Of a DNA stretch of 64,000 bases, positions 26,811-55,317 are shown in pieces. Below the pieces are notes generated by a model, which had not been told where the DNA came from, did not search any database, and saw nothing but the letters and a program-made list of their open reading frames with translations. How positions within the stretch are numbered: the stretch's first letter is position 1; each line of letters opens with the position of its first letter. The position numbers were made by a program, and so were the translations under genes. This DNA comes from Runella sp. MFBS21 (GTDB lineage: Bacteria > Bacteroidota > Bacteroidia > Cytophagales > Spirosomataceae), in the NCBI RefSeq assembly GCF_029433105.1, contig NZ_JARNTW010000002.1, forward strand, positions 289,744 through 353,743. Direction: 5' to 3'.

Positions 26811-26811
26811 G

Positions 26812-26835: not shown

Positions 26836-26844
26836 TCGTTAATG

Positions 26845-33969: not shown

Positions 33970-34548
33970 ATGAGCGATTCGCTTCTTTGGTCCCAGCTGA
34001 TAGCCGATGACCAAAATGCTTTTTCTATGCTTTTCGAAAAGTATTTGAGCCCATTGGTAAATTATGGAAAAACTTTGCTGCCTTCGCACGAAAAGGTGAA
34101 AGATTGTGTCCAAGATGTATTTGTGGATATTTGGCTCTATCGCCATTCGCTGAGTGAAGATGTAGTGGTGAAAGCCTATTTGTTTTCGAGTGTACGTAAG
34201 CGTATTGCCCGGCTGTATGAGCGAGACCGCATTTTTCGCCAAACAACCTCTTTAGAAGACTTAGAGTTTTCGGTTAGGTTTTCGATCGAGCACCAGCTGA
34301 TTACTGATGAGACTATGGAGTTGGAAGTACAGCAACTCAACCAACTCCTCAATGCTCTTCCACCTCGCCAAAAAGAAACACTTTATTTAAGATACCATCA
34401 AGGATTGGCACTTGAGCAAATCGCCGAAATATTGGATATCAATCATCAATCGGTCAAAAACCTCCTTCAGCGTGCCATTTTGCACCTTCGCAAAGAGTGG
34501 AAAGGTACAATTTCATTGCTTCTTATGTTTAGTTTTATCACTTCTTAA
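33970..34548 (+). CDS. ECF RNA polymerase sigma factor of the PUL
   Basis: 192 residues from the ATG at 33970; a GTG at 33940 is possible. Sigma-70 region 2 (DDQNAFSMLFEKYLSPLVNYG, VKDCVQDVFVDIWLYR) and region 4 (LPPRQKETLYLRYHQGLALEQIAEILDINHQSVKNLL) are clear; region 3 is missing as usual for ECF factors. The following FecR anti-sigma gene and a SusC with an STN domain make this the three-part FecI-FecR-SusC transduction system in which glycan import releases the sigma factor to transcribe the PUL. Confidence 0.93.
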   Translation: MSDSLLWSQLIADDQNAFSMLFEKYLSPLVNYGKTLLPSHEKVKDCVQDVFVDIWLYRHSLSEDVVVKAYLFSSVRKRIARLYERDRIFRQTTSLEDLEFSVRFSIEHQLITDETMELEVQQLNQLLNALPPRQKETLYLRYHQGLALEQIAEILDINHQSVKNLLQRAILHLRKEWKGTISLLLMFSFITS

Positions 34549-34626
34549 TTTTTTTTGAAAAAATTTAAAAAGAAGTGAGTACTCTACAAACTATCTGTCC
34601 TCTCTGCATTTGAAATTAATTTTCAG

Positions 34627-35718
34627 ATGCAACCACGCGATTTATATACCAAAGTAGAAGACTTCCTTTCCGACGAATCTTTCCAGCGATGGGTCAGATT
34701 TAAGGAAAACCACACCCACTGGGAAGAATGGACATTAGAGAGTCCAGAAAGAGCTAAATTAGTAGAAGAAGCGAGGTTATGGATCGTATCGATGAACATA
34801 GACGATACCGAGCTTTCAGAGCAAGAAGTGCAAATAAGCCTGCAAGATACTTGGCAGACTATTCGGAGCCTCCAAGCACGTAAGTCGATTTGGCAGACCT
34901 ATTGGTTTAGGGTGGCGGCGGCTATTGTGATAATAGGAGCGACCACTACGGCTTATTTTCTTTGGCAAAGAAGCCCCACTCATGCGGTCATTACTTACAA
35001 AGATTTGGTAGAGAAAGACACGGAAGGCTTGATTGAGCAAACCAATAATTCTAACAAACCTCAACTTATCACCCTTGCAGATGCTAGTTCGGTACTCTTA
35101 CAGCCCAAAAGCAAACTAAGCTACCCCAAAGAATTCAGCGGCAACGAGCGCAAGGTCTATCTATCAGGAGAAGGTTTTTTTGAAATCAGCAAAAATCCTA
35201 GTAAGCCTTTTTATGTCTATGCCAACGAAGTGGTGACTAAGGTATACGGGACGAGTTTTAGAGTGATAGCCTATCCTACGCAGCCCAATGTGGAAGTAGT
35301 AGTGCGTACAGGAAAAGTAAAAGTGATGCCCAATGAAGAAATACAATCAGGTACCCAAGAAGGAATCATGCTTCTGCCTAATCAAGCTGCAAGGTTTGTA
35401 AGAAACAATCTCTCATTTGAAAAAATCTTGGACATTACCCAAGACAAACCGCTTATTGCTTCTACCAATACCATTGAACAACTGAGCTTTGAGTTTCGTG
35501 ATATACCTGTCCAACAGATATTTACGACGATTGAACAGGCGTATTTGGTAAAAATAGAATATCCAAAAGAAAAGCTGAAAGATTGCTATATGACTACTTC
35601 GCTCAGCGATGAACCTCTGCCCGAAAAGCTTAAAATAATATGTGAAAGCTTAGGAAGTGATACTCGCTACGAAATGAATGGAAATCAGATTACAATAATT
35701 TCAACTGGCTGTAACTAA
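34627..35718 (+). CDS. FecR family anti-sigma factor
   Basis: 363 residues. The N-terminal cytoplasmic part (1-95) precedes one membrane segment (FRVAAAIVIIGATTTAYFLW, about 97-116), a periplasmic FecR domain (about 145-240: LADASSVLLQPKSKLSYP, RKVYLSGEGFFEI, GTSFRVIAY), and a C-terminal DUF4974 secretin-like segment (FEFRDIPVQQIFTTIEQAY to RYEMNGNQITI, about 285-360). In this arrangement FecR senses the STN domain of the TonB-dependent receptor and controls the ECF sigma factor encoded 78 bases upstream. An insertion of about 160 bases then leads to the susC gene. Confidence 0.93.
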   Translation: MQPRDLYTKVEDFLSDESFQRWVRFKENHTHWEEWTLESPERAKLVEEARLWIVSMNIDDTELSEQEVQISLQDTWQTIRSLQARKSIWQTYWFRVAAAIVIIGATTTAYFLWQRSPTHAVITYKDLVEKDTEGLIEQTNNSNKPQLITLADASSVLLQPKSKLSYPKEFSGNERKVYLSGEGFFEISKNPSKPFYVYANEVVTKVYGTSFRVIAYPTQPNVEVVVRTGKVKVMPNEEIQSGTQEGIMLLPNQAARFVRNNLSFEKILDITQDKPLIASTNTIEQLSFEFRDIPVQQIFTTIEQAYLVKIEYPKEKLKDCYMTTSLSDEPLPEKLKIICESLGSDTRYEMNGNQITIISTGCN

Positions 35719-35765
35719 CCCCCCTAAACCCCTGCCTATGCATTAAAAAAAGAAGTAAAAAAGAA

Positions 35766-35797
35766 AAGCGTCGAAATGCTGCAACATTCCAACGCTT
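35766..35797 (+). promoter_or_regulatory. stem-loop in the susC leader (1)
   Basis: AAGCGT...AATG pairs imperfectly with CATT...AACGCTT around CTGCAA. Located 84 bases before the susC start in the 162-base gap after fecR. No T-run follows. May act in transcript processing or attenuation. Confidence 0.45.
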
Positions 35798-35801
35798 AGA
35801 G

Positions 35802-35828
35802 CTTTCCTGAATCCTCTGCAAAGGAAAG
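35802..35828 (+). promoter_or_regulatory. stem-loop in the susC leader (2)
   Basis: CTTTCCT and AGGAAAG, seven perfect pairs over a 13-base loop, directly after stem-loop 1. Its 3' arm is AG-rich, so pairing could hide or expose a nearby site. Function unknown. Confidence 0.4.
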
Positions 35829-35880
35829 GAAACGTCATGTCAATACCAGTCCTATAGTATTAAAGCTAACAATCAAAAGT

Positions 35881-38800
35881 ATGGAAAAAAGTTTTATTCA
35901 CCAACGGCTACTTTTTCAGATCGTGAAAATATCGGTGTTTCAAATGATACTTGCTGTTGTTTTTGTGGGAATAGCAATGGCCACGCCCGCAAAAGGGCAA
36001 GAAATGCTTGACTCAAAAGTGACGCTTGTTCTCAACAATGTGAGCTTAGAAAATGCATTGTCTGAAATTGAAAAAACAGCCCATGTCAAGTTTTCCTACA
36101 ACTCACGTACGCTGAATCTTAGCCAGAAAGTAACTGTGAGCGAAAAAAATGAACTTCTCTCCACTGTACTTAATAAAATGCTTAAGCCGCTCAATATTAA
36201 GTATGTAGTAGTGAGTAAGAAGATTGTGTTAAGAAAAGAAAGTACCCCTAAAACGGGGTTGTTATACGAAAATGAAGCCTCCTCAAAACCGCAAGTAATA
36301 GGCAATGTGGATTGGGGTGTGAAAGGAGTCGTGACCGACGAAAAAGGTGAAAAACTACCTGGCGTAAGCATTACTATCAAAGGTACCACTCGCGGAACTA
36401 CTACCAATGGCAACGGAGCCTACGAAATCAGTGTGCCTGATGGGAAGGCTGTTTTGGTTTTGTCGTTTATTGGTTATCAGCCTCAAGAGGTTTTGGTCGA
36501 TAACCGAACCACCATCAATGTTTCGCTCGTTGCTGATATCAAGGCTCTAGAAGAGGTGATAGTGGTAGGTTATGGTACTATCAAAAAAGAGAAAAACATC
36601 ACGTCTGTTTCGACTTTAGAAGCCGAAAAAATTACCAATCTTGGAGCTGCTTCGGTGGGCGAAACCTTGGGAGGACGGATTCCGGGGATTATTGTTAGCA
36701 ACAGTGGCGGCGGACCAGGCAAAAAACCTTCTATTTCGCTTAGAGGGGGCGGTACGCCAGTGTATGTCATTGATGATATTATTTCTACCGAATTTCAATT
36801 CCAAACCCTTGCCGTCAATGATATTGAAAACATCTCTTTCCTAAAAGACGGCCCTGCTACGGCGATTTATGGGGTGGCGGCAGGAAATGGATTGGTTTTG
36901 GTCACTACCAAAAGAGGAAGTAACAAAAAGCTTTCTATCAATTACAACTTTGGACATGACTTGTCGCAACCAACTTATTTGCCGCGCAAAATCAGTTCGT
37001 ACGAATTGGTGTCGCTCGTAAATCAGGTGGACATCAAAGAAGGTAATCCAGCGCGATACCCTGAGAGCGATGTTCAAAAATACCGTGACCAAACCGACCC
37101 CCTCAACTTCCCAAACAATGATTGGCAAAAGCTTGTGTTAAAAGAATTTGCGCCGCAGCAGCATCACAATTTATCGCTAAATGGTGGTAATGAGCAAATT
37201 AAATATTATGCCTCATTGGGTTATTTCAACCAAGGAACTTTGTACAAGTTTAATACTAACTGGTTGAAAAGATACAACTACCGTTTAAGTCTAACGGGAG
37301 ATTTTGCCAAAATTGGCTTGAAAACTAGTATGACGATTTATGGCGTTGACGAAACTCGTCGCGACAATGCAAGCGGGTATGGAAGCGGGTATTTTGCGGT
37401 ATGGAGTCACATACAAAATGCACCTCCTACCGACAAAGCATACGCTGATTTGGAACAAACCAAATATGCCAACAAAGGTGACCACCCTATCGTCGAAATC
37501 GACCCTCGCAGTGGGTATGTTCGCAACCAAGACCGCAACCTGAATGCCTTACTGAACTTTGACTGGAAAGTGCCAGGCGTAGAAGGTTTGTCGTTTCGGG
37601 CCAACGGAAACTTGAGTCAGGTGCAGGCGTTTGGGAAGTCTTGGAACATTACAGCTCCACAATATGCCATAGGAAGTTCTACTCCTGCTAGTACAAATCA
37701 GCCCAATCTTGGTGTCTCGACTACTACGGGCTATAATTACGTATTGCAAGGATTTGGAAACTATGAAAGAAAATTTGGCGGGCACAATGTCTCGGCCATG
37801 CTGGGATATGAAGAAGCTTATGGCTATAGCGAAAACTTCAGCACAGGCCGAAACTCATATGTGTTTGGGATTGACCAAATTTTTGCGGGGCCTCAAGCAA
37901 CGGCTACCAACAACGGTTCGGCTTTTGAAAACGTCAGAAATGGCTGGCTGGGACGTGTGCGTTATGATTTCAAAGAAAAATATTTGTTTGAAGGAAGTTT
38001 TCGATATGATGGTAGCGATTTATTTCCAGCTGGAAAAAGAAAAGGATTCTTCCCCGGCGCAGCGTTGGGGTGGTTGATTTCTCACGAAAATTTTATGGGA
38101 AGTTTGGTTGAAAAAAATATCATCAACTTCCTGAAAGCCAGAATATCGTATGGTTCGGTAGGGCAAAATTCGGGTGTGAGCAGCTTTGCTTATGTGCCAG
38201 GCTATTCTACAGGTGGTGGCTACGTAGTAGGAGGTGTGTTGCAACCGAGCCTCAATGCCCCGAGCATTCCTAGCCCCGACATTAGTTGGTACGACCAGCA
38301 ATCTTTCAATACAGGTTTTGATTTTGGGACTTTGGGCAATAAACTCAGCGGAAGCCTGGATTATTTTTACTTACGTACTACGGGCTATTTGGCTTCTCCA
38401 TCAGGTGTGGGTTATACCGACCCTCTCGGAACAGCCCTGCCTACTCGCAAATCAAACGGGGCATTTAGAAGAGCCGGGTTTGATTTTACGGTCAAATACA
38501 GTGATAAAGTGGGTAAATTAAAATACACACTTGGTTCGAATTTTGTGAAGTTTGACCAGCTATGGGAAGTAAACCCCAACGAAGATAGCACCACCCTCAA
38601 AAACCCCAACACTACTTCGTATCACCAAATCGGATTCTTACAAACGGCTTATTTGTCAGCGGGATTGTACCAAAATTCAGCTGATATCATGAACAGTCCA
38701 CGTCGATTGGCTTCAAATATAGCGCCGGGCGATATTATTTACAAAGACGTAAATGGTGACGGAAAACTCGACGGCGATGATTTTAGAAGAGTAGGGAAGG

Positions 38801-39297
38801 CTGGATTTCCAAGAGTAACTTTCGGCTTTACGGCTGATTTAACTTACGGTGGATGGTTTATGAATATGCTTTGGCAAGGAAGCGGAAAGCGAAGTATCTA
38901 CTTGGGTGATGTCATTCAGAGTATGTATTCTCCTAATATCCGCTACGAATTTCAGACCCAAAACCATTGGGAGCCAGGCGCAGGCAATACCCAATTCCCA
39001 CGCTTGATTTCGGGTGCAGCAGTGAATGGTGGGCACAATGCCGTCACTTCAGATTTTTGGGTGATCAATGCAGGCTACCTACGCCTAAAAGCGTTGCAGG
39101 TGGGTTACAACTTTAAAAATTATCTTTCCAAAGACTTAAAATTCATTTCAGACCTGAGGGTGACGTTGAGTGCTACCAACTTACTCACGTTTTCGAAGAT
39201 CAAACAATACGGCCTTGACCCCGAAACAGGAAGTAACAACAACTACGATTATCCTGCTCAACGGGTGTATGCCTTATCTGTGAATCTAGGTTTTTAA
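35881..39297 (+). CDS. susC: SusC/RagA-type TonB-dependent outer-membrane receptor with STN domain
   Basis: 1138 residues. Signal region 1-40; STN signalling domain about 46-118 (KVTLVLNNVSLENALSEIEKT, IKYVVVSKKIVL); carboxypeptidase-regulatory-like domain 148-218 (GVVTDEKGEKLPGVSITIKGT, YEISVPDG, FIGY); a conserved EEVIVVGYGT stretch at 224-233; plug domain with SLRGGGTPVYVIDDI; then a 22-strand barrel with closing motif YPAQRVYALSVNLGF. SusC proteins import oligosaccharides in a TonB-dependent way together with SusD. The STN domain passes the signal to the FecR upstream. Followed after 20 bases by susD. Confidence 0.97.
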   Translation: MEKSFIHQRLLFQIVKISVFQMILAVVFVGIAMATPAKGQEMLDSKVTLVLNNVSLENALSEIEKTAHVKFSYNSRTLNLSQKVTVSEKNELLSTVLNKMLKPLNIKYVVVSKKIVLRKESTPKTGLLYENEASSKPQVIGNVDWGVKGVVTDEKGEKLPGVSITIKGTTRGTTTNGNGAYEISVPDGKAVLVLSFIGYQPQEVLVDNRTTINVSLVADIKALEEVIVVGYGTIKKEKNITSVSTLEAEKITNLGAASVGETLGGRIPGIIVSNSGGGPGKKPSISLRGGGTPVYVIDDIISTEFQFQTLAVNDIENISFLKDGPATAIYGVAAGNGLVLVTTKRGSNKKLSINYNFGHDLSQPTYLPRKISSYELVSLVNQVDIKEGNPARYPESDVQKYRDQTDPLNFPNNDWQKLVLKEFAPQQHHNLSLNGGNEQIKYYASLGYFNQGTLYKFNTNWLKRYNYRLSLTGDFAKIGLKTSMTIYGVDETRRDNASGYGSGYFAVWSHIQNAPPTDKAYADLEQTKYANKGDHPIVEIDPRSGYVRNQDRNLNALLNFDWKVPGVEGLSFRANGNLSQVQAFGKSWNITAPQYAIGSSTPASTNQPNLGVSTTTGYNYVLQGFGNYERKFGGHNVSAMLGYEEAYGYSENFSTGRNSYVFGIDQIFAGPQATATNNGSAFENVRNGWLGRVRYDFKEKYLFEGSFRYDGSDLFPAGKRKGFFPGAALGWLISHENFMGSLVEKNIINFLKARISYGSVGQNSGVSSFAYVPGYSTGGGYVVGGVLQPSLNAPSIPSPDISWYDQQSFNTGFDFGTLGNKLSGSLDYFYLRTTGYLASPSGVGYTDPLGTALPTRKSNGAFRRAGFDFTVKYSDKVGKLKYTLGSNFVKFDQLWEVNPNEDSTTLKNPNTTSYHQIGFLQTAYLSAGLYQNSADIMNSPRRLASNIAPGDIIYKDVNGDGKLDGDDFRRVGKAGFPRVTFGFTADLTYGGWFMNMLWQGSGKRSIYLGDVIQSMYSPNIRYEFQTQNHWEPGAGNTQFPRLISGAAVNGGHNAVTSDFWVINAGYLRLKALQVGYNFKNYLSKDLKFISDLRVTLSATNLLTFSKIKQYGLDPETGSNNNYDYPAQRVYALSVNLGF

Positions 39298-39317
39298 ACT
39301 CAAAGCAACTGAAAGCA

Positions 39318-41099
39318 ATGAAACGATATATCACAAAAATAGTTTTGGCACTAACGGTTCTTAGTGTTTGTATTTACTCCTGTAAGCAATTGGACGATAC
39401 ACGGCCGTTTGACAAATTTGATGAGACTGCCGTATGGAGTTCAAAGAGCAATGCCATGCTTTTTGTCAACGGCGTATATTCATCAGTGTTAGGTCTATAT
39501 ACCAACACCGTTGAGGACGAAGTTCGAACCAGCAATATCATCCAAAGCGACGGAAATGCCTTCACGCGGGAGTCGATTACGAGAGATGATGATTATGGAT
39601 TTAACCAATTTAGCAAAATCCGTAGCTGTAATCTCATCATCGAAAAAGCCAATGCATCGGCAGCTTTAGCAGAAGGTGATAAAGTAGAATTGGTAGCGCA
39701 CGGGAAGTTTTTGAGAGCTATGACCTATTACTGGCTTGCGCGCCGTTTTGGAAGGGTAATATGGGTGGATAAAGTATTGACCGAAAACGAAACAAACTAT
39801 GCTTTGCCTCAAACGACCAATATCGCCGACACCTATAACTTAATCATGAAAGATATAGATGACGCGATTGCGGGCTTACCCGCTTCGTCGCCTGCGGGGA
39901 TTGCGACCAAGGCATCGGCTTATGCCCTCAAATCTGAAGCAGCCTTGCAAGCAGCCGCTTATACAGGCGATAACACTTACTACCAAAAAGCGATAGATGC
40001 AGCCAACGCCGTGATTGCAACTGGTAAGCCTTTGGAGACCGATTACGAAGGAATGTTTAACGAAAGAGCTAGATTTTCGCCCGAAATTCTTCTTGCTACT
40101 TACCGTGATAAGTCAAATACGGTAGTTTCGAGCATTCAGGATATGCAAGAGGCAATCCCTAATGTCAACAATGATGACCTTAGACTGCGCAATGCTACGC
40201 CCTTGTTTAAACAAGATAAGGTATTTGAAGATTGGGGTAAATTTTCTCCCACCCAAAACATCATCGACGAATACCTTGTCATTGATGCTGCCGACCCTTC
40301 TAAAGCAGTGAAGTGGGATCAATCGTCGCAGTTTTTGAAAAATGTTACCAAAAAACCTTCTACTTTTCTTGATAGCGCTATTGTGACAGGTACAGGAAGT
40401 ATCAACAGTATTATGTATGATAACAGAGATAAGCGCTTGGCGGCTTCAATCGTCTATGATTCAACGGCTTGGTATGGCGAGTTGGTGACCACCAATCGCA
40501 ACGGCAACCTGAACCGTATGATCAAAGGAAGTTTGAACTCTGGTTGCTGCACCCAAATCACAAATGCGTATTTCCGTAAAGGAATTTATAACGTTTCGCC
40601 CCGACCTTTTTATAATACCCCGGTAGATTATCACTGGGTGATTTTCCGCATGGGGCGCGTGTATTTGAACAAGGCAGAGGCATTGCTCATGCAAAACAAA
40701 ATTGCGGATGCTGTAACCACCCTCAATATCACTCGTCAAGGGCACGGTGGCTTGCCGCCTTCTACGGCTACTACTGCCGAGGCTGCTTGGAAAGACTACA
40801 AACGGGAGCGTAGGGTAGAGCTTTTCAAAGAAAAAGACTATTACTGGAGCTTATTGCGCTGGGGAAAATACGGCGGAAATGCCAACGGAGGAGCTGCTCC
40901 TGGCGCTAAAATCGCAGAATTGCTGGAGAAACCGACGTTTATGGAAATCAATGCCACCCGTAAAGGATACCGCATAGAAGTCCTCAATTTCCAACTCAAC
41001 GATCAGCGTATGTTTGACGAAACCCGACGTTATCTGTTGCCGATTCAGAATTCGCAAATAGTACGTCATGGGGCGATGACTCAAAACCCTAACTGGTAA
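39318..41099 (+). CDS. susD: SusD/RagB family surface glycan-binding lipoprotein
   Basis: 593 residues. Lipoprotein signal ending in CIYSC (Cys at residue 22). TPR-like helices of SusD are visible in the N- and middle regions (AHGKFLRAMTYYWLARRFGRVIWVDKVL; RMGRVYLNKAEALLMQNK; KDYKRERRVELFKEKDYYWSLLRWGKY) and the terminal ILPIQNSQI element ends with the typical LLPIQNSQI and GMTQNPNW-like closing. The protein covers the SusC barrel like a lid and binds the glycan. It is directly coupled to the preceding susC and followed by a small lipoprotein. Confidence 0.96.
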   Translation: MKRYITKIVLALTVLSVCIYSCKQLDDTRPFDKFDETAVWSSKSNAMLFVNGVYSSVLGLYTNTVEDEVRTSNIIQSDGNAFTRESITRDDDYGFNQFSKIRSCNLIIEKANASAALAEGDKVELVAHGKFLRAMTYYWLARRFGRVIWVDKVLTENETNYALPQTTNIADTYNLIMKDIDDAIAGLPASSPAGIATKASAYALKSEAALQAAAYTGDNTYYQKAIDAANAVIATGKPLETDYEGMFNERARFSPEILLATYRDKSNTVVSSIQDMQEAIPNVNNDDLRLRNATPLFKQDKVFEDWGKFSPTQNIIDEYLVIDAADPSKAVKWDQSSQFLKNVTKKPSTFLDSAIVTGTGSINSIMYDNRDKRLAASIVYDSTAWYGELVTTNRNGNLNRMIKGSLNSGCCTQITNAYFRKGIYNVSPRPFYNTPVDYHWVIFRMGRVYLNKAEALLMQNKIADAVTTLNITRQGHGGLPPSTATTAEAAWKDYKRERRVELFKEKDYYWSLLRWGKYGGNANGGAAPGAKIAELLEKPTFMEINATRKGYRIEVLNFQLNDQRMFDETRRYLLPIQNSQIVRHGAMTQNPNW

Positions 41100-41113
41100 A
41101 TGTTCAATAACAA

Positions 41114-41629
41114 ATGAGAAAGACGATGCAAACAATACATAAAATGAAGTATTTGCTTATCCTAGGCATGGCATTGACATTATCTTCTTGCCTTAAATAC
41201 GGACTAGAAGAAAATCTGCCAAAATTCAAGGAAGCGCTTATTACAGAGGTTTTTATGGAATATCGCTTTGAAGACCCCACTGCCACATCGGGCGGAAGTC
41301 CAGTGGTGCGGAATGTGACGCTTACCTTGAGCCAAAAACAATTTAAAAGAAAAGAAAATACGGCCGGCGCTACCTTAGATTCGTTGATATTTAATGTAAC
41401 AGTACCGGCTGCTTCTGGTAGTTTTACGGCTGCCGAAAAAGCGAAAGTATCTAAAAGTCGGTTGGTATTTATGACCAATATCTCGCCCGCCGCCACTATG
41501 GAGCCTTTGGAAGGGGCACCTATGCCGGGCATCCCTGGCGATTTTTCGCAACCTCGTAAATACAAAATTACCGCTGCCAATGGCGATAGTCGCGTGTGGG
41601 TAGTAAGAATTGCCAATTTTACGAATTAA
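41114..41629 (+). CDS. small lipoprotein in the PUL, unknown surface protein
   Basis: 171 residues from 41114, or 161 from the ATG at 41144, which gives the better lipoprotein signal (KYLLILGMALTLSSC). Mature protein is beta-rich and has no motif I recognise; an RxVxxTLSQ pattern and the ending ITAANGDSRVWVVRIANF look like an immunoglobulin/beta-sandwich of the kind found in DUF5018-type lipoproteins. Position directly behind susD suggests a surface glycan-binding protein, replacing the larger SusE/F proteins. Confidence 0.8.
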   Translation: MRKTMQTIHKMKYLLILGMALTLSSCLKYGLEENLPKFKEALITEVFMEYRFEDPTATSGGSPVVRNVTLTLSQKQFKRKENTAGATLDSLIFNVTVPAASGSFTAAEKAKVSKSRLVFMTNISPAATMEPLEGAPMPGIPGDFSQPRKYKITAANGDSRVWVVRIANFTN

Positions 41630-41635
41630 ACAAAA

Positions 41636-41687
41636 AAACTTCCCCAGTTGACAAAGGTAGATAGGTGATTTAAAACTGGGGGAGTTT
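41636..41687. repeat. inverted repeat downstream of the lipoprotein gene
   Basis: AAACTTCCCCAGTT (41636-41649) and AACTGGGGGAGTTT (41674-41687), 13 of 14 positions complementary, spacer 24. Runs of T follow only on the minus strand. It may weaken or stop transcription within the PUL, or mark a rearrangement boundary. Confidence 0.5.
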
Positions 41688-41774
41688 GCCCATTGCTTCA
41701 TAGGGCTATTGGTTAAGTATCATAAATAGTGGGTTATACCGATCGTGAAACTTAGGTTTGAATCCTGACATTTC

Positions 41775-42464
41775 ATGATTCATTTATTGACGTATAAAAG
41801 GTCGGTTGTGATACAGCCGACCTTTATAAAAGCCCAACCGAAAACTGGTCGCAGCACTGCAATCATAAAAAAGATACCGCATTTTGACCAAATACTGTCG
41901 GTTTCTAAAAAGGGGAAGTACTATACTTTCTTAGGAAAAGAAGAAATAGAGAAGCGATTCCCGATGCTGATGAAGAAAAAATTTGTCGATTATGCAAGCT
42001 ACGCAGGCAAAACAACGGAGGAGGTTTTTGGTGAAGACCTGAAACGAACCAAGGAACTATCTCTCCAAACGCTCTCATCATTGACCTTGATAAACAATGG
42101 AAAAGGCGGTTTTGAGTCGATTCCATTGCCGTCACCTGCTCAATGGGCACCTATTTATGCTTTTGCGGTGGGAGATTTTAACAATGACAACAAAACCGAC
42201 CTCATAGCTGCCGGAAATTTTAGTGGTGTTTCGCCTTTTGAGGGGCATTATGATGCCAGTTATGGTTCTGTTTTACTAGGAAGTGGCACGGCAGCTTTTA
42301 GTGCATTATCGCCCCTCCAATCGGGTCTGACCTTAAACGGAGAAGTGAGAGATATCAAATCTCTCAAAACACTGAGCGGGGTGTTGTGGTATGTAGTATC
42401 AAGAAACAATGGAAGCCTTCTGTTTTATAAAAATTCAATAAAACAGAAAAAAACTAGTAGATGA
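41775..42464 (+). pseudogene. C-terminal remnant of an FG-GAP/CRTAC1 (ASPIC/UnbV-type) protein
   Basis: 229 codons without stops. From residue about 55 it matches the C-terminal end of large (about 1000 residues) CRTAC1 FG-GAP repeat proteins usually coded in Sus loci: FVDYASYAGKTTEEVFG, LTLINNGKGGFESIPLPSPAQWAPIYAFAVGDFNNDNKTDLIAAGN and the following DASYGSVLL. The FG-GAP propeller and the signal peptide are missing. The first about 30 codons cover a strong hairpin (41793-41828) and are not family-like. So I read it as a 5'-truncated gene. It could still be translated as a cytoplasmic fragment. Confidence 0.8.
41793..41828. repeat. strong hairpin within the 5' region of the remnant
   Basis: TATAAAAGGTCGGTTGT pairs with ACAGCCGACCTTTATA with one bulge and one G-T pair, loop GAT or nearby. 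It lies where the missing part of the CRTAC1-type gene ought to be and looks terminator-like; no long T-run on either strand. Confidence 0.5.
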
Positions 42465-42476
42465 TTTATATCGATT

Positions 42477-45703: not shown

Positions 45704-47502
45704 GCAAAAATAAAATAATAGGCTACGGCTTGCTTTTAATGCTGTGCTTTTGCAAAACGACCTTTGCCCAACAACGCGTACTTTTGAGCAATTTTGGAGC
45801 CAAGCCCGATAGCTACGAAAACGCAAGCCCCGCACTCGTCAAAGCCATTGAACAGTGCCGAAAATTATCCAATGCCACGCTCGTATTACCTGGTGGGCGT
45901 TTGGATTTGTGGCCAGATGGTGCGTACAAACAAGAAATTTACATTTCAAACAGTACAGAAAATGACACGTTATCGAAGGTTAAAAACGTCGCTTTTTTGT
46001 TGAAAGAGTTTAAAAACCTAACTATTGAAGGCAACGGAACGCAAATATATTTACACGGAAAAATGGTGGCATTTGCCCTTTTTAAGTCTTCAAACATCAC
46101 GATTCGTAACCTCTCATTTGACTACGAACGACCCACGATGAGTGAGTTGATGCTGACGTCGGTGTCGCCCACCAAAGTAGAAACCAAGCTGCACCCTGAC
46201 ACTCGTTATTTTATTAAAAATGGAAAATTGGGCTTTTACGGAGAAGGTTGGAAAAGCAACAATCACCACACCATTGTTTTCAATGAAATCGACGAAACCC
46301 TAAAATACAGCTCGTTTAAGGCATTTTTGGAAAGCAAAGCCGAAGAAAAACAAAAAGGAGAGGTCGTATTTACGGGAGATTTTTCCAAAACCAAATTGAC
46401 AGCAGGGGAAAGGTTGTCGATTCGTGACCCTTACCGCGACAATTGCGGCGGATTTATTAGTCTGAGTCAAAACGTGTTGTTACAAAACCTCAATTTGCAC
46501 TTTATGCACGGATTGGGAGTAGTATCGCAGTTTTCCGAAAATATCACCATTCGAAAAGTCAACGTAGCGCCTCGTCCCGAATCAGGACGAATTATCAGTG
46601 CCTTCGCCGACTGTTTTCATTTTTCGGGATGCAAGGGTAAAGTGTTGATTGACAGCTGTTTCACTTCAGGTGCGCACGATGACCCTATCAATGTGCACGG
46701 AACGCATTTGCAAATCGTAGCTAAAACGGGTTCCAACAAACTCATGGTGCGTTTTATGCACCACCAAACGTATGGTTTTGAGGCATTTTTTAAGGGCGAT
46801 AGCATTGCTTTTGTGAATCCTAAAACACTGCAACCCTTAGGTTATGCCAAACTTAAAAATGCAGTATTGAAAAACAACCGAGAAATGGAATTGGAAACTG
46901 ATAAACCCTTTGCTGCCAATGTGGCCGTGGGGCAGTGTATCGAAAACCTTACTTGGACGCCTGAAGTGACGATACGAAATTGCCGTTTTGAACGAACAAA
47001 TACGCGCGGTATTTTGATGACAACCCGCCGCAAAGTGGTGATTGAAAACAACCATTTTTACAAAACAGGGATGCACGCCATTCTCATTGCCGACGATGCC
47101 GCCAGTTGGTTTGAGTCTGGACCCGTACAAGATGTAGTGATTCGTAACAATGTGTTTGAAGAATGTGGATATAATTCATCACCAGGTAGTTATGTGATTG
47201 CAATTGCGCCCGAAAACCACGATTTAGTCAATGGTTTTTACGTTCATCGAAACATTCTCATTGAAAATAATACCTTCAAAACTTCGGTAGCACCCTTGCT
47301 GACGGCAAAAAGTGTGGACGGTTTGGTTTTTCGTTATAATAAAATCATTACGTCAAAAACGGTGGATTTTATGGCCGATAAAACCACTTTTAGAATTGAA
47401 GCCTGTAAGAATGTAACCCTCACTGACAATTCTTTCCCCCCTGGCGACAAGCCTATTCTGACTACCTCCCACATGGAAAAATCGGAAGTAAAAATGGATT
47501 GA
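45700..47502 (+). CDS. GH110 alpha-1,3-galactosidase family, second copy
   Basis: 600 residues, signal peptide about 1-23 (ending TTFAQ). Beta-helix protein clearly related to the preceding one but distant in sequence. The active-site block reads ADCFHFSGCKGKVLIDSCFTSGAHDDPINVHGTHLQIV, with D327 and D328 as the catalytic pair. Known GH110 genes occur in two forms: strict branched blood group B and linear plus branched; the two copies here may divide those substrates. ATGA overlap with the first copy shows translational coupling. A palindrome follows at 47516. Confidence 0.9.
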   Translation: MSKNKIIGYGLLLMLCFCKTTFAQQRVLLSNFGAKPDSYENASPALVKAIEQCRKLSNATLVLPGGRLDLWPDGAYKQEIYISNSTENDTLSKVKNVAFLLKEFKNLTIEGNGTQIYLHGKMVAFALFKSSNITIRNLSFDYERPTMSELMLTSVSPTKVETKLHPDTRYFIKNGKLGFYGEGWKSNNHHTIVFNEIDETLKYSSFKAFLESKAEEKQKGEVVFTGDFSKTKLTAGERLSIRDPYRDNCGGFISLSQNVLLQNLNLHFMHGLGVVSQFSENITIRKVNVAPRPESGRIISAFADCFHFSGCKGKVLIDSCFTSGAHDDPINVHGTHLQIVAKTGSNKLMVRFMHHQTYGFEAFFKGDSIAFVNPKTLQPLGYAKLKNAVLKNNREMELETDKPFAANVAVGQCIENLTWTPEVTIRNCRFERTNTRGILMTTRRKVVIENNHFYKTGMHAILIADDAASWFESGPVQDVVIRNNVFEECGYNSSPGSYVIAIAPENHDLVNGFYVHRNILIENNTFKTSVAPLLTAKSVDGLVFRYNKIITSKTVDFMADKTTFRIEACKNVTLTDNSFPPGDKPILTTSHMEKSEVKMD

Positions 47503-47515
47503 TACTAGCCTTAAT

Positions 47516-47548
47516 AACCCTGCCAAGGTTCAAAACCTTGGCAGGGTT
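47516..47548. repeat. perfect 15-bp palindrome between PUL genes
   Basis: AACCCTGCCAAGGTT, loop CAA, AACCTTGGCAGGGTT. Lies 14 bases after the GH110 stop. Strong stem but no T-run, so it need not end transcription; may stabilise upstream mRNA 3' ends. Same plan as the terminator at 1474-1510. Confidence 0.8.
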
Positions 47549-47592
47549 GACTAAACCAAACCTTAGAAGGGCTTTCTTAACCCCATGCCTTT

Positions 47593-50520
47593 ATGAAATC
47601 AATCATAACCTTTTTCGCTTTTTTGTGTTTGGGTTTTGGAACATTGTGTGCCCAAATACATCCCTATGCCGTAGCCACCACGCCTTGGCTGGAAGAGCAT
47701 GGCAATCACCGTGCTATCATTAAAGTGGCGCAACCAGCCGAGGTTGTTTATACAAAAATCTATTGGCGACGCCGTGACGCTAGTCCCCAAGAAAAACGGC
47801 TTTTAATAACCGATGAGAAGGGGGTGGAAGTGACTAATATTCATCGTGTTAAAATTGATAGAGAAGTTGGAGAGTTTGTCTTCGAACCGAGCCATGCAGG
47901 CGTTTTTTACGTGTATTATATGCCTTTTGCGGGGAAAAAGAACATCGGTTGGTGGGAAGGAAAGTACTTGACTCCTGAAAACAAACCCAATCAAGCTTGG
48001 CTCGAAAAGCATCGACTTTTGGCCAAAGATTTTGAGGCAAAATCACTTCCGCAAGCCTCAGTACTGAAAATAGAATCACGAACGGCTTTCGACAGTTTTT
48101 ATCCTATGGAAGTGGGCGCGACGCACGCGGAAAGAGAGACATTGATTGGTCGTGAAAATAAAAATTTTCTACTTTTTCCAGAAGATAGAAAATTTCCGGT
48201 CCGAATGACGGAAAATATTCCTTATCGATGGATTGAGCAAAAACCCGCTAACGTGTTTCATGGTAAGGCATTACGCAATGAATACTATGCGTTTCAGATT
48301 GCCGTTTTTGCGGCTAAAAAAGAGCTTAAAAACCTCAAAGTAACGTTTTCGGGAAACAATAAAGTGACTTGTTTTAACACGGGAGGCACCGACGCAGACG
48401 GTCATCCGTTTACCAAAAAAGTGGACGTAGCCCAAGGAAAAGTACAACCACTTTGGTTTGGCGTTGATATTTCTGCGACCGAAAAACCGGGAAAACAATC
48501 GTTTGATGTAATCATTTCCGCCGAAAATGAAGCCCCCCAAACAATAAAAGTAACCCTCGACATAATCAATCAAATCCTTTCCGACCGGGGCGATAGCGAG
48601 CCATGGCGGCATTCTCGACTGCGTTGGCTAAATTCGACCTTGGGCATGGACGACCAACCCGTTGCGCCTTACACGGCTTTGAAAAGAAATGGGAAACAGA
48701 TTACGTACCTCATGGGAGAAGTGTCGCTCAATGAGTCAGGTTTTCCAGAGGCGGTGAGGGTCAATCAACAACATTTGCTTCGTAACCCCTTAGTGTTTGT
48801 CGTCGAAACGGAGGCGGGAGTGGAAAAAATCACTCCTTCCTCCCTTCGATTTACCAAAAACAGCGCGGGCGTAATTTCGTGGGTAGCCGAGGGAAAAGGC
48901 CGTAGATTTAGCCTTCGTTGCGACGGAAGCATGGAGTTTGACGGTACATTGCTGTACAATATTCGCTTAAAAACGGAAACACCCCTGAATATAAAAGATG
49001 CTCGGTTGGAGATTCCTGTGGAGAAAGCCAATGCAACCTATTTTATGGGCATGGGGTTGCCTGGGGGATTTTGTCCCACGGAATACCAATGGAAATGGAA
49101 AGGCCCGCAAGACTCGTACTGGGTTGGTTCTGTAAAAGCAGGGTTACAATGCGAGATGCTGGGTGCCGATTACACAGGCCCCTTATTGAACCTCTATCAT
49201 CCTGCGCCACCGTCGTCTTGGTACAATACTAACAAAGGAGGGTTTAGAATTTTGAGCAATGACGCGCAAACGCTCGCTACAACGTACTCAGGAGAACGGA
49301 CGATGAACGCAGGGGAAAGCCTTGACTTTTCGTTCCGTTTATTACTCACACCCGTCAAGAAACAAGATACCTACGACCAGTTTACCAACCGCTATTACCA
49401 CGACGGAAATAAGCCTGCCCCGTCGCTGAAAGATTTGGCATCGGGCATTAAAATTACCAATGTTCACCACGCAAATCCTATCAATCCGTACATCAATTAC
49501 CCCTTTATTGCGGTCGATAGCATGAAAAATTTCGTGGACTATTGGCACAGTAAAGGCTTGAAAGTCAAGATTTATTACACAATTCGCGAACTGACAAATC
49601 AAGTTCCTGAGCTGTGGGCGTTGCGGAGCTTGGGCGATGAGATTTTTGCCGATGGCAAAGGAGGCGGTTTTCCGTGGCTACGCGAACATTTGGTGGAGCA
49701 TTATGATGTGCAATGGTTCAACAAAATCAACGGTTACGAAGAATGCGACGCGGCGATTCGGACGGGTGGCAAATCCCGTTGGTACAATTATTACATCAAT
49801 GGCCTCCAATGGCTGGTCAAAAACGTTGACATCGACGGGCTTTATCTTGATGACGTGGCCTTCGACCGAAATATGCTGAAACGAATGCGGAAGGTGATGA
49901 ATGTCGTCAAGCCAGGTTGTTTGCTGGATTTACATTCCAACACAGGGTTTTCAAAAGGCCCTGCTAACCAATACACCGAGTATTTTCCGTACCTCAATAA
50001 ACTATGGTTTGGCGAAAGTTTTAACTACGACAAAATGCCGCCCGAAAACTGGATGGTCGAAGTGTCAGGTATTCCGTTTGGGCACATGGGCGATATGCTA
50101 CACAGCGGCGGCAATCCGTGGCGAGGTATGGTTTATGGCATGACGGTTCGCTATCCGTGGTTTACGGAAGGGGTGAGTTGTGACCCGCGTGATATTTGGA
50201 AAATTTGGGATGAGTTCGACATTGCCCATGCTAAAATGAGCGGCTATTGGGAAGAAAATTGCCCCGTCAAAACGGACAACGAAAAAGTGCTGGCAACGGC
50301 TTATATTCACCAAGGAAAAACCCTTATTTCGGTGGCATCGTGGGCGTCCGAAACCGTAAAAGTGAAACTGAATATCGACTGGAAAGCCATCGGCATCGAC
50401 CCTTCTAAGGCAAAATTTACTATTCCTGCCGTCAAAAACTTCCAACAAGGCCAAACTTTTACCAAAGATGACGCCTTGGAAATCGCCCCGACGAAGGGGT
50501 TTTTATTGATTGTTGAATAA
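47593..50520 (+). CDS. DUF6067-type glycoside hydrolase-like protein
   Basis: 975 residues, signal peptide about 1-20. Begins with beta-sandwich domains (about 20-380), then a large region with TIM-barrel features: GIKITNVHHANPINPYINYPF, GLKVKIYYTIRELTN, WYNYYINGLQWLVKNVDIDGLYLDDVAFDR, CLLDLHSNTGF, LWFGESFNYDKMPPENWMVE. The pair of acidic residues in IDGLYLDD is the best candidate catalytic site. It resembles DUF6067/GH123-like predicted glycosidases; exact substrate is unknown. The position between GH110 and GH35 suggests an exo-acting step on the same glycan, possibly on HexNAc. Confidence 0.7.
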   Translation: MKSIITFFAFLCLGFGTLCAQIHPYAVATTPWLEEHGNHRAIIKVAQPAEVVYTKIYWRRRDASPQEKRLLITDEKGVEVTNIHRVKIDREVGEFVFEPSHAGVFYVYYMPFAGKKNIGWWEGKYLTPENKPNQAWLEKHRLLAKDFEAKSLPQASVLKIESRTAFDSFYPMEVGATHAERETLIGRENKNFLLFPEDRKFPVRMTENIPYRWIEQKPANVFHGKALRNEYYAFQIAVFAAKKELKNLKVTFSGNNKVTCFNTGGTDADGHPFTKKVDVAQGKVQPLWFGVDISATEKPGKQSFDVIISAENEAPQTIKVTLDIINQILSDRGDSEPWRHSRLRWLNSTLGMDDQPVAPYTALKRNGKQITYLMGEVSLNESGFPEAVRVNQQHLLRNPLVFVVETEAGVEKITPSSLRFTKNSAGVISWVAEGKGRRFSLRCDGSMEFDGTLLYNIRLKTETPLNIKDARLEIPVEKANATYFMGMGLPGGFCPTEYQWKWKGPQDSYWVGSVKAGLQCEMLGADYTGPLLNLYHPAPPSSWYNTNKGGFRILSNDAQTLATTYSGERTMNAGESLDFSFRLLLTPVKKQDTYDQFTNRYYHDGNKPAPSLKDLASGIKITNVHHANPINPYINYPFIAVDSMKNFVDYWHSKGLKVKIYYTIRELTNQVPELWALRSLGDEIFADGKGGGFPWLREHLVEHYDVQWFNKINGYEECDAAIRTGGKSRWYNYYINGLQWLVKNVDIDGLYLDDVAFDRNMLKRMRKVMNVVKPGCLLDLHSNTGFSKGPANQYTEYFPYLNKLWFGESFNYDKMPPENWMVEVSGIPFGHMGDMLHSGGNPWRGMVYGMTVRYPWFTEGVSCDPRDIWKIWDEFDIAHAKMSGYWEENCPVKTDNEKVLATAYIHQGKTLISVASWASETVKVKLNIDWKAIGIDPSKAKFTIPAVKNFQQGQTFTKDDALEIAPTKGFLLIVE

Positions 50521-50543
50521 AAAAACGAAACATATTTTTTTTC

Positions 50544-52799
50544 ATGAATATTTTAAAAAAAATGGGCTTGAGCTTAACCTTTTTGGCAGGACTGTCGTCA
50601 ACGCAGGCTCAAGAATTAGCCGTGTTGGACATGAGGAAGGTTGAAAAAATAACCCCAAAGACGTTACCTATGCAAGCGAGCAATCCTTCAGGTAGTATGT
50701 TGGCGGCTAATAACCAGTATTTTATCAAAAATGGTGAACCGTGGTACCCACTGATGGGCGAAATTCACTACAATCGGGTAAATGATCAAGATTGGGAAGA
50801 AGCACTTCTGAAAATGAAAAGTGGCGGTTTGGGGATTGTGGCCACTTATGTATTTTGGAACGAACATGAAGCGCCAAAAGGGACATGGGACTGGGAAAAA
50901 GGACGGAACCTACGGCGGTTTGTCGAACTGTGCGGAAAACATGGACTTTATGTTTGGCTACGAATCGGGCCGTGGTCTCACGGGGAGCAATTGTACGGCG
51001 GACACCCCGATTGGATAAATTCAATGAAGGGCAAGCGCTCCAATGATTCGGCATATTTAGCAGAATCTTCTCGGTTGTTCCAACAGATTGGTAAACAAAC
51101 AAGCGGCTTGTACTTCAAAAATGGTGGGCCAATCATTGGGGTGCAGTTGGAAAACGAATATGCGTCAGGGCAAGCGGAACATATCTCAACGCTTAAAAAA
51201 ATGGCGCTTTCCAGCAAAATTGAACCTGTTTTTTGGTCGGTGACGGCCAATACAGTCTTTGACGATACCAAGGAACAAGTGATTCCGCTCCAAGGTGGAT
51301 ATCCATACCGTGGTTGGGAAAAAGACGGAGGGAAGGCTACCAAAGATTTCCTCTATGGCAACGACCAATGGATTATGACCGATGCTCTTGGTAAGGTATT
51401 TTATGATACCAATCGTTTCCCAAAAGGCATGTGCGAACAGGGCTGCGGGAGTCAGGTGACTTACGCAAACCGTTTTGTGGTGGAACCACATATCGTAGAA
51501 GCACACCTTCAAAATCAAATGGGGCGAGGGATGAACATGATGGGGTATTATATGTTTCACGGGGGTACCCAATCACCTGGACTCAAAGAGCCTGGCTGTC
51601 CCGAAAATTATGATTTTCAGGCGCCCATTAGCGAATTTGGCTACTTGCGCCCTTCATATAAATACCTGAAAATTTTACATCATTTTGCCAATGATTTCGG
51701 AAAAGAGCTGGTACAAATGCGTGTTGTAGAAGCCCACAATCCACTCCGCGATGAGTTGAATACGGAAAAACTCAGGTACATAGGTCGGGTCAAAGACAAC
51801 CACGGGTTTGTGTTTTTATGTAATGCCCAAGTACGGGTACCCATGCCTGATAAGCAGGTGTCTTTGCAAATAAAACTCCCCAATGAAACGATTAACTTTC
51901 CGACGTTTATCCTGAAAGGGGAAACCTCGCCGATTTTACCGTTTAACCTAGATCTCAATGGTATTTTAATAAAATATGCCCTTGCACAACCATTTGCCAA
52001 GGTTGAAAATGAGGGGAATCTGATGGTATTTTTTCAAAAACTCAATGGCGTTGAGCCGCAAGTGGCACTTGATAAAACCACCCTACAAGAGATGAAATCT
52101 GCTGGTTGGATACTTCGCAAGAAAGATGGTTTTGACGTATTATCTTCCTCAAAATCAAATGTAATTGAACTTAAAAATGGTAAAGGAAAGCGGGTGACCT
52201 TGGTGTTTTTGACGCGTACCGAAGCCGAAAAAGCATGGCGTATCAATCTAAATGGAAAGCAAGCATTGGTACTTTCGGAAGCTGATATGGTCTTGAAAAA
52301 CAATGAAATAGAGTTGCTTCAGATGAAAGTGCCTACTTTCGATTTTAAAATATATCCTGCCAACACAATAGCATTTGAAACGTCTATGAAGAAGATTGAG
52401 TCGTCAATTTGGGATAATTATACAGTAAGTGTTCCCCAAAAGAAACCAGCATTGAACCTACAAAAAAGGGCAACAAATGAAATCGAAATCGGTAGTGCAG
52501 AGGCCTTTCCTACTTATATCAATGATGTGTTTGTGAAGGTAGATTATCGAGGCGGGCAAGCAGAAGTATGGCAAGGCGAAAAACTGAAAACCGATCACCT
52601 TTTTAATGGGGTGCCTTGGTTGTTGGGCTTAAAAAATTACCTTCCATACGGGCAGTTGATTGTGCGTTTAGCAGATTGGAACAACAGCATAACGGGCATT
52701 TCGGCTGAGGTAATTGACGATATCAAGAAAACAGGGCCTTCTTTCAACGCCATAGAGGTAATCTCCCAATACAAAACATCGGTTAAAATGAACCCCTAA
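50544..52799 (+). CDS. GH35 beta-galactosidase
   Basis: 751 residues, signal peptide about 1-23. The GH35 catalytic barrel is clear: [79 protein letters not shown] (acid/base Glu about 205), and MCEQGCGSQ with the candidate nucleophile Glu near 298. It continues through [10 protein letters not shown] and beta domains. GH35 enzymes remove terminal beta-galactose (beta-1,3 or beta-1,4). In the PUL it would act after alpha-galactose has been taken off. It lies 23 bases behind DUF6067 and 13 before GH95. Confidence 0.93.
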
Positions 52800-52812
52800 A
52801 CATCCCTTTTTT

Positions 52813-55197
52813 ATGTTAAAAGTCCTTATTAAAATCGGTTTATGCCTCGTAATTGTGGGCAATGCTTTTGGTCAAAAACATCCGTTGAAACTTTGGTACA
52901 AACAACCTGCTTCGGCTACCACACCCGACAGCAAAGACGGTTGGAAAGACGACCAAGAATGGCTCAAAGCGCTGCCAATTGGGAATGGAAATATCGGTGC
53001 GATGGTGTTTGGAGATGTTAACAAAGAACGCGTTCAGCTCAACGAAAAAACGCTTTGGAGTGGTAGCCCGTTTGACAACGATAATCCTGACGCACCCAAG
53101 TATTTGGACGAAATTCGAAACCTTCTTTTTGAAGGGAAATTTAAAGAAGCAACGGCTTTGACCAATAAAACGCAAATTTGTAAAGGGCAAGGTTCGGGGC
53201 ATGGAAATGGTGCCAATGTGCCTTTTGGCTGCTTTCAAACTTTGGGTGATTTGTGGTTGGATTTCGGAAAACAAAGTGATTATCAGTCATATTATCGGGA
53301 TTTGAACCTGAATGAGGCTATTGCCAATGTCAGCTATACCCAAGATGGGGTGACTTACAAACGAGAATATTTTGTCAGTGGACCTTTGAACGCATTAGTA
53401 GTGAGGCTAACGGCGGATAAAAAAGGCGCTCTTAGTTTTTCGGCTTCGCTGAATCGTCCTGAGCGTTTTACTACCGAAACAAGTGACGGAGAATTGCGAA
53501 TGTTTGGCGCGCTTCATAATGGTCAAGGTGGTGATGGTATACAATATATAACTCGACTCAAAGCTAAGTTGAATGGAGGGACGCAATCATTTATGGATGA
53601 TAAATTAGTGGTAAAAAATGCCGATGAAGTGATTTTATACCTGACGGCTTCGACCGACTATTTGCCCAATTATCCCATTTACAAAGGCCGTGATTACAAA
53701 GGAATTACGGCGGCTAATTTGAAAAAAGCATTAGCTCAACCATTTGGGCAAGTCAAAAAAGAGCACCTTGCTGATTACCAAAAGTATTACAACCGAGTGG
53801 TGTTGAGTTTGGGTCAAAATACTGCCGATAATATCCCAACCGACGAGCGACTTTTGGCCATTAAAACCTCAGACAACGATAATTATTTGACACAATTGTA
53901 TTTCCAATTTGGTCGATATTTGTTGATTTCTTCGGCCCGTGAAAACACGCTGCCGGCCAACTTACAAGGCATTTGGGCCAACAAAATTCAGACGCCTTGG
54001 AACGGCGATTACCATACCAATATCAACATTCAGATGAATTATTGGCCTGCCGAAGTTACCAATCTTAGCGAACTACATTTGTCGATGACGCAGTTTATCA
54101 AGGACATCGAAAAACCCGCTACCAAATCGGCTTCCGTACAGTTTGGGTTGCCGGGATGGAGTGTCAATCCGATTGTGAACGTGTGGGGTTTTACCTCGCC
54201 TGGCGAGCACCCTTCGTGGGGATTGACGTCGGGGGCGAGTGGCTGGATTTGTCAACATTTGTGGGAGCATTATGCTTTTACAAAAGATAAAAACTATTTG
54301 CAGTCGGTGTATAGTACGCTGAAAAATGCGGCTCGTTTTTACAAAGCTTGGTTGGTCGTTGACCGCGAATCGGGGCTGTTGGTGTCGGGGCCTGCGTCCT
54401 CGCCCGAAAATGGTTTTGTGGCGCCCGATGGTAGTCGAGGTTCGATAAGCATGGGGCCTGCCCACGACCAAGAAATTATCGACGAGCTTTTTGGCAATGT
54501 CATCAACGCCGCAGAAATTCTCAATGACAAAGACACTTTTATCGAAGAATTGAAAACAGCCCGTAAACAACTTCAACCCGTCAAAATTGGGTCGGATGGG
54601 CGCGTGATGGAGTGGGCTAAAGAGTACAAAGAAGTGGAGCCAGGACACCGCCACATGTCGCATTTGTACGCGCTTTACCCTGGGAATGCGTTTAATTACA
54701 GTCAAACCCCGCAGTTTGTGGAAGCGGCCAAAAAATCACTGGAATATCGTTTGGCCAACGGAGGTGGAGCGAGCCAAACGGGCTGGAGCGCGGCATGGGT
54801 GACTAATTTTTGGGCGAGACTGAGAAACGGTGATGAAGGATTGAAAAACTTCAACATTATTTTGAAACAAAAATCAGCGCCTAATTTCTTTAACCTTCAC
54901 CCACCTTTTCAAATCGACGGAAATTTTGGGGCGACGGCGGGAATTGCCGAAATGCTTCTTCAAAGCCACGACGGAAACATTGAACTTTTGCCCGCCTTAC
55001 CCTCGGCTTGGAAAGATGGCGAGGTCAAAGGGCTTTGTGCCAGAGGTGGTTATGTAGTGGATATGAAATGGAAAGACGGGAAGTTGACCCACGCGCAAGT
55101 ATCATCAAAACTAGGCGGAACGGTCAGTGTAAAATACGGCAAAAACACCAAAACAATCACGGTGCAAAAAGGAAAGCCAACAACCATTGCCCTTTAG
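52813..55197 (+). CDS. GH95 alpha-L-fucosidase (inverting)
   Basis: 794 residues, signal peptide about 1-18. The whole GH95 plan is present: N-terminal beta domain ([28 protein letters not shown]), alpha/alpha barrel with [23 protein letters not shown] (Asn 397 and nearby residues), SSPENGF (Glu near 532), [14 protein letters not shown], and [20 protein letters not shown] (Asp near 702). Family members remove alpha-1,2-fucose from H-type ends, or alpha-L-galactose. It is the last gene of the PUL. Its stop TAG forms the start of the AGAC palindrome at 55196. Confidence 0.94.
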
Positions 55198-55230
55198 ACT
55201 TGCTATGACTATTATAAACTTGGCAAGTCT
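55196..55230. repeat. AGAC-type palindrome overlapping the GH95 stop codon
   Basis: AGACTTGC (55196-55203) and GCAAGTCT (55223-55230), 8 perfect pairs over a 19-base interior that includes TAAACTTG. The stop codon TAG of GH95 begins one base before the repeat. Same outer arms as at 24595-24627. Confidence 0.55.
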
Positions 55231-55280
55231 TTGATTTGAAATTTAAGGATTAGATAAATTAGGTAAGAGATGAATGTATC

Positions 55281-55317
55281 AAACCAGACTGCCTCCTTGA
55301 AGTAGTCTGGTTTTTTT
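55281..55317 (+). terminator. intrinsic terminator closing the PUL
   Basis: ACCAGACT and AGTCTGGT arms, 8 pairs, then seven T. No open reading frame lies between it and the GH95 stop. It defines the 3' end of the SusC-GH95 transcript. Confidence 0.9.

Follow-up and report, generated by a model that had tools for sequence, protein, structure and literature searches.

The window analysed here, 64,000 nucleotides from Runella sp. MFBS21 (positions 289744–353743 of contig NZ_JARNTW010000002.1, in a genome of 7.88 Mb and 72 contigs), carries on its + strand, between 33940 and 55313, a polysaccharide utilization locus (PUL) of the SusC/D type. It encodes, in order, an extracytoplasmic function (ECF) sigma factor, FecR, SusC, SusD, a DUF5018-related lipoprotein, an FG-GAP remnant, a GH101-like protein, two GH110 proteins (GH110a and GH110b), a DUF6067 protein, GH35 and GH95, followed by a hairpin (Table 1). 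The SusC gene adjoins that for SusD, and the carbohydrate-active enzyme genes are co-directional. All genes named in an earlier note on this DNA were recovered in their places on the + strand through open reading frames (ORFs), Pfam and structure matches; the start given there is the first ATG of a sigma factor ORF listed from an upstream GTG, and the terminator that it placed after GH95 corresponds to a hairpin whose outer stem of 12 pairs precedes a T run. A Pfam scan of the 12 PUL ORFs likewise bore out its report of no sialidase, sulfatase or GH20. The STN domain of SusC is consistent with a signal passing via FecR to the sigma factor, and the DUF5018-related lipoprotein is a probable glycan-binding partner at the surface. 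Relatives were drawn from 44 loci, collected in one scan of GTDB contigs with the GH101-like protein as query and sorted by record titles into 26 from Bacteroidota and 18 others, mostly Bacillota.

Table 1 Features of the PUL, with positions in the window.
Feature	Position	Strand	Evidence
ECF sigma factor	33940..34548	+	Pfam Sigma70_r2/r4; listed from GTG 33940, first ATG 33970
FecR anti-sigma factor	34627..35718	+	PF04773 and PF16344
SusC with N-terminal STN signalling domain	35881..39297	+	PF07660, PF13715, PF07715; TIGR04056 757 bits
SusD-like lipoprotein	39318..41099	+	PF07980, PF14322
DUF5018-related lipoprotein	41114..41629	+	PF22243 3.3e-36; lipobox LSSC
5'-truncated FG-GAP/VCBS gene remnant	41775..42464	+	45% identity over 194 amino acids (aa) to C-terminus of 1108-aa protein
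Stable hairpin at the remnant's broken end	41797..41825	+	fold z -5.5
GH101-like glycosidase, 489 aa from TTG (first ATG 42483)	42477..43946	+	Glyco_hydro_101 1.4e-14
GH110a, divergent GH110 lineage	43991..45703	+	7jw4 E 1.7e-40
GH110b	45700..47502	+	PF23763, PF23764 (GLAA-B barrels); 8yk3 E 2.9e-93
DUF6067/PF19543 predicted glycosidase	47593..50520	+	PF19543 1281 bits
GH35	50544..52799	+	PF01301 1.2e-52; E205 in NE motif
GH95, L-fucosidase type	52813..55197	+	PF22124 6.6e-165; H401, N403, N405, E532
Terminator-like hairpin, then T run	55281..55313	+	-17.6 kcal/mol, z -5.3; beyond the loop limit of one scan

The PUL had been called complete, which is inexact, as an FG-GAP gene that was missed earlier survives only as a remnant. 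This aligns with residues 915–1108 of an FG-GAP protein from Flavihumibacter petaseus (L049:6647–9970), whose gene occupies the equivalent slot, between DUF5018 and GH101-like genes. The alignment begins at residue 31 of the remnant ORF. Because only the C-terminal 194 residues match, and the first 30 are unmatched and overlie the stable hairpin, we regard the gene as truncated in the window, and the locus therefore as not wholly intact. A repeated-element scar at 41630–41870 (241 bp, containing the hairpin) was considered and rejected, there being no second genome match. That the locus as a whole is decaying and non-functional, as the truncation could suggest, is highly improbable, however: all other ORFs are open, catalytic residues are kept in all five judged enzymes (the GH35 nucleophile being only a candidate), and among nine relatives in which a DUF5018 gene lies within reach, four (L041, L052, L055 and L059) have the GH101-like gene directly next to it, with no FG-GAP gene between. 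In the other five, the next gene is the matching FG-GAP gene (L049), a GH97 gene (L068), a gene of 750–753 aa (L056 and L060, the L056 copy being melibiase-like) or a 243-aa ORF (L046). The FG-GAP gene is probably dispensable.

The enzymes themselves look active, judging by their retained catalytic residues. The best solved match of GH110b is 8yk3, listed as an alpha-galactosidase and which we take to be AgaBb, while GH110a has beta-helix-type Pfam matches only, without GLAA-B, and matches GH110 structures, PdGH110B best but at a far lower score. The catalytic aspartates of PdGH110B are D321, D344 and D345, according to PMC7939477; all three are kept in GH110a by direct alignment to 7jw4, in which the stretch of GH110a for the +1' subsite residues is unaligned, and GH110b has the same motifs, traced through 8yk3. 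Both window copies thus share the beta-helix family and catalytic Asp motifs of the GH110 alpha-1,3-galactosidases 8yk3, 9i4f (PpaGal) and 7jw4 (PdGH110B), from which GH110a is set apart by a deep clade of its own. In a 53-row GH110 tree, whose rows were drawn from GH101-like loci and the window's order and for which the program gave a long-branch warning, GH110a falls in a 9-row clade (support 100/100, stem 1.13) and GH110b in a 16-row clade (100/99), each holding rows from GH101-like loci only.

Aligned to 4ufc, the GH95 protein has H401 at the position of T370 in the L-galactosidase, and N403, N405 and E532 are kept. Histidine is the state of the AfcA fucosidase at this fucose/L-galactose position in PMC4491172, where the authors call the His/Thr rule tentative. 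With a general acid Glu, two Asn and His rather than Thr, the GH95 protein has the residues of a predicted alpha-L-fucosidase. In GH35, E205 is kept and the nucleophile may be E298, a position that reads Glu in each of the 6 rows with a letter there. The GH110 motifs, the L-fucose-type GH95, GH35 and the co-conservation of the module described below fit the neutral target that had been proposed, Gal-alpha-1,3(Fuc-alpha-1,2)Gal-beta or alpha-Gal. They sit less well with an algal or plant galactan such as lambda-carrageenan, which we consider very unlikely: the authors of PdGH110B, the best solved match of GH110a, assigned that enzyme to a lambda-carrageenan pathway, and one relative locus (L058) has a sulfatase, but the same authors suggest in PMC7939477 that prior desulfation is needed, and there is no sulfatase among the 12 PUL ORFs. 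The other sampled GH110 rows of the order also lie outside both window clades, and the GH95 residue is the His of the L-fucose type and not the Thr of the L-galactose type.

The GH101-like protein scored 54.6 bits against PF12905 (curated cut-off 25), and 53 of 53 rows match at E<=0.001. All 53 rows keep the GH101 catalytic pair, D219 and E257 in the window protein; the corresponding SpGH101 numbers, D764 and E796, were assigned through an EngBF alignment and PDB titles. Six SpGH101 substrate contacts are listed in PMC10949244 (D658, H661, H694, N696, 764 and E796), of which five are kept here (N143 in 52 of 53 rows); the sixth, H661, is replaced by Tyr102 in every one of the 53 rows. The predicted model has a GH101-type fold and, after about position 405–437, aligns to GH101 and not to the GH129-type enzymes NagBb (presumably GH129) and ZgGH129, to which a profile search found no sequence match. 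A profile comparison with DUF6067 gave no relation. Compared with SpGH101 and EngBF, the window protein has 17% identity and is far shorter than the GH101 chains listed for comparison (1112–1531 aa).

GH101-like proteins occur in 2 of 291 genomes of the order, the window's own included (E<=1e-10), and in the own genome contig 31 carries another copy. At 9 of the 44 loci there is more than one separate GH101-like ORF (two or three, one of them partial, in L046), and two Flavihumibacter genomes have two GH101-like halves fused in one ORF of about 926 aa (L045:36–2813 and L049:9983–12766). Two proteins related to each other, 758 and 764 aa long and lacking a Pfam match, adjoin a GH101-like gene in the own genome (L036:8444–10717) and in Flavihumibacter profundi (L057:11422–13713), respectively.

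Where these enzymes act bears directly on what they can degrade. A lipobox is clear in the DUF5018 protein and, on visual inspection, probable in SusD; a simple rule finds none in the six window glycosidases, which on inspection carry ordinary signal peptides. A hydrophobic N-terminus was found in 38 of 39 Bacteroidota GH101-like rows as against 0 of 17 from non-Bacteroidota loci, where it was also missing from GH35 (0/13) and GH95 (0/4) and where 2 of 10 GH110 rows exceeded the threshold, by eye via inner stretches. The GH101-like protein is accordingly predicted to be periplasmic here and cytoplasmic outside Bacteroidota; the window copy differs from SpGH101 and EngBF in having no lipobox, and the relatives outside Bacteroidota in having no signal peptide. 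The companions scanned in non-Bacteroidota loci included ABC (ATP-binding cassette) permeases with SBP_bac_1 (L065), MFS_2 (L070), GH29 (L077), GH36 (L080), a LacI-type regulator (L069) and a metallophosphoesterase (L070); ABC/SBP_bac_1 and MFS-type (major facilitator superfamily) systems take up small sugars. Pfam gave no recognised surface endo-enzyme or peptidase among the 12 PUL ORFs, and a surface endo-acting enzyme is a usual, though not a defining, part of the classical PUL model outlined in PMC11992087. Given this, the 489-aa length of the GH101-like enzyme, the glycosidases without lipoboxes and the relatives without signal peptides that, where scanned, lie beside ABC or MFS transporters, it is most likely that the enzymes trim small oligosaccharides after import rather than intact mucin.

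On balance, and with some reserve, we favour an ECF-sigma/FecR-controlled PUL for small neutral glycans that are alpha-galactosylated and fucosylated, either blood-group-B-like or with linear alpha-Gal. SusC/D and the DUF5018-type lipoprotein would capture and import oligosaccharides or small glycoconjugates freed beforehand by something else. Once in the periplasm, the glycan would lose alpha-1,3-galactose to the two GH110 enzymes, alpha-1,2-fucose to GH95 and exposed beta-galactose to GH35. The GH101-like enzyme would cleave an alpha-linked N-acetylgalactosamine (GalNAc) or galactose residue in the core of the imported glycan, either as an exo-enzyme or by releasing a disaccharide. The DUF6067 protein may be an additional glycosidase. 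In the own genome as a whole, GH20 matches were found at 6 places and fucose-isomerase-type matches at 3, one of them strong.

The earlier note had read the PUL as directed at capped mucin-type O-glycans, with GH101 releasing core 1 from Ser/Thr. Its neutral alpha-Gal/Fuc chemistry is plausible, but the mucin-opening step lacks support, and degradation of animal mucin-type O-glycans in that manner now appears unlikely. It would account for the GH101 fold with five contacts kept, for the joint presence of GH110, L-fucose-type GH95 and GH35, for relatives that are gut records by title and for GH109-type genes (an alpha-GalNAcase family) near some of them. Set against it are the short chain, the invariant change of His661 to Tyr, the predicted periplasmic or cytoplasmic site, the lack of any recognised peptidase, sialidase or hexosaminidase among the 12 PUL ORFs and a search of the own genome that found no M60 mucin-type peptidase. 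Phosphoesterases near relatives are also, in our judgement, not expected for plain mucin O-glycans. The Bacteroides thetaiotaomicron mucin PUL BT4240-50, described in PMC11992087, is alike in linking glycosidases for neutral O-glycan parts to SusC/D, but has a surface M60-like peptidase and GH109, neither of which is in the window PUL, which in turn adds GH101-like, GH110 and GH95 proteins.

Phosphoesterase-type genes recur near 15 of the 44 loci (counted from cluster membership or from direct scans, the latter covering 8 ORFs), which hints at a phosphate-bearing substrate. Such ORFs lie at L050:11544–12773, L055:12922–13758, L060:4431–5288, L066:1032–2882, L070:8946–9986, L073:12868–14076, L073:15939–16787 and L080:15622–16656. 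They would suit a microbial glycan with blood-group-B-like units, either a bacterial O-antigen or a fungal glycoinositol phosphosphingolipid, with the phosphoesterases near relatives freeing the glycan from phosphate. Blood-group-B-like units are carried by the E. coli O86 type O-antigen and a fungal basidiolipid. The record titles of relatives, gut metagenomes together with many free-living species, also point to many habitats, which we assume from the organism names. We hold this reading possible but doubtful, because the window PUL has no phosphoesterase among its 12 ORFs. For our favoured small neutral glycan, the mixed record titles, the phosphoesterases near relatives and the own-genome matches lead us to keep animal, bacterial O-antigen and fungal sources alike.

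The association of these enzymes is conserved. A GH110a relative (E<=1e-40) was present at 7 of the 26 Bacteroidota GH101-like loci and in 0 of 394 other genomes sampled from across the phylum (Fisher p 1.5e-9; the two samples were drawn differently, with at most 3 candidates scored in each of 395 phylum genomes including the own), so that GH101-like/GH110a clustering is far above chance. Full-length DUF6067 was also commoner at GH101-like loci (7/26) than in other sampled phylum genomes (9/295; p 7e-5). Within 10 kb of the GH101-like gene we found GH110 at 21 of 44 loci, GH35 at 16, GH95 at 8 and DUF6067 at 7, and DUF5018 at 9 of the 26 Bacteroidota loci; the loci having been collected by GH101-like similarity, this co-conservation is counted one-sidedly, and flanks end at some contig ends.

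That one-sidedness weighs against our favoured reading, as do several other points. The calls on signal peptides rest on visual inspection, hydrophobicity and a simple rule for lipoboxes rather than on a trained predictor. Loose lipoboxes occur in relatives of DUF6067 (3/7), GH110b (3/16), GH95 (2/8) and the GH101-like protein (2/56), so some enzyme forms may be at the surface; none were seen in relatives of GH110a (0/9) or GH35 (0/19). The GH110 of one GH101-like locus (L055) lies outside both clades, as do the order's other sampled rows. Nine other DUF6067 loci (L113–L121) lack GH101-like and GH110 genes over the roughly 20 kb of each, and DUF6067 was for that reason rejected as part of a fixed GH101-like module. 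The neighbours scanned in those nine loci include GH109, M1 peptidase, DUF5107, arylsulfotransferase-like and cytochrome c proteins, and some of the loci have SusC/D.

Proteins of GH97, melibiase-like, GH36, GH109, GH29, GH2 and GH43 types lie near relatives, so that the wider set is rich in alpha-galactosidase-type families. A tetratricopeptide repeat protein with a cytochrome c554 domain lies inside the GH101-like PUL of Snuella sedimenti (L050:5364–8000).

The DUF6067 protein is harder to place. PF19543, which we take to be DUF6067, is now named 'GH123_N' in Pfam; the profile matches GH123 chains in the N-terminal domain only, and the window protein has no PF13320 (DUF4091) match at E<=0.01. 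The GH123 motif is a catalytic adjacent D-E pair, as given in PMC11087588, and no conserved adjacent D-E pair was present in 17 rows. In a predicted model (predicted local distance difference test score, pLDDT, 80, with the barrel weaker), the fold may resemble that of GH36/GH97-type enzymes, whose architecture combines a beta-supersandwich, a barrel and a C-terminal beta domain; Foldseek placed a Flavonifractor galactosaminidase closest, then GH97-type enzymes, at large root-mean-square deviation, and the best VIA rows mostly cover the sandwich domain. GH123 was not among the VIA rows listed, an absence to which we give no weight.

The nearest SusC and SusD are from Chitinophagaceae (SusC 60–61% identity; SusD 68%, to the proteins of Flavihumibacter petaseus and Niabella drilacis), so that the PUL may have been acquired horizontally. 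When flank synteny was compared for signs of insertion, the best matches of a left-flank DUF4199 protein and of one right-flank protein in three same-genus genomes were just 33–36% identical. Elsewhere in the window lie two neighbouring large Ig/PKD-type proteins with CHU_C type IX secretion domains (17607–23269) and, on the - strand at 24647–29406, a Gfo/Idh/MocA oxidoreductase and a GH116-type protein.

None of the titles listed in a literature search describes this locus type. We tentatively propose, as a conjecture rather than our expectation, that the GH101-like proteins represent a hitherto undescribed subfamily, or a new family, of small enzymes in the GH101 clan. They would act intracellularly on oligosaccharides taken up by the cell, and their linkage specificity would differ from that of GH101, with His661 changed to Tyr. 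Together with the undescribed deep GH110a lineage, they may form a pathway for a blood-group-B-like glycan from the environment, common to PULs of Bacteroidota and transporter loci of Bacillota. A GH101 Pfam match beside GH110 and GH95 should not by itself be equated with mucin degradation. For glycans tipped with blood-group-B or alpha-Gal units, the locus offers a defined set of enzymes; it also offers two enzyme lineages, GH101-like and GH110a, that are open to testing and whose nearest solved relatives are distant. Since O-glycan analysis and blood-group conversion make use of GH101 and GH110 enzymes, these small periplasmic or cytoplasmic versions could be useful.

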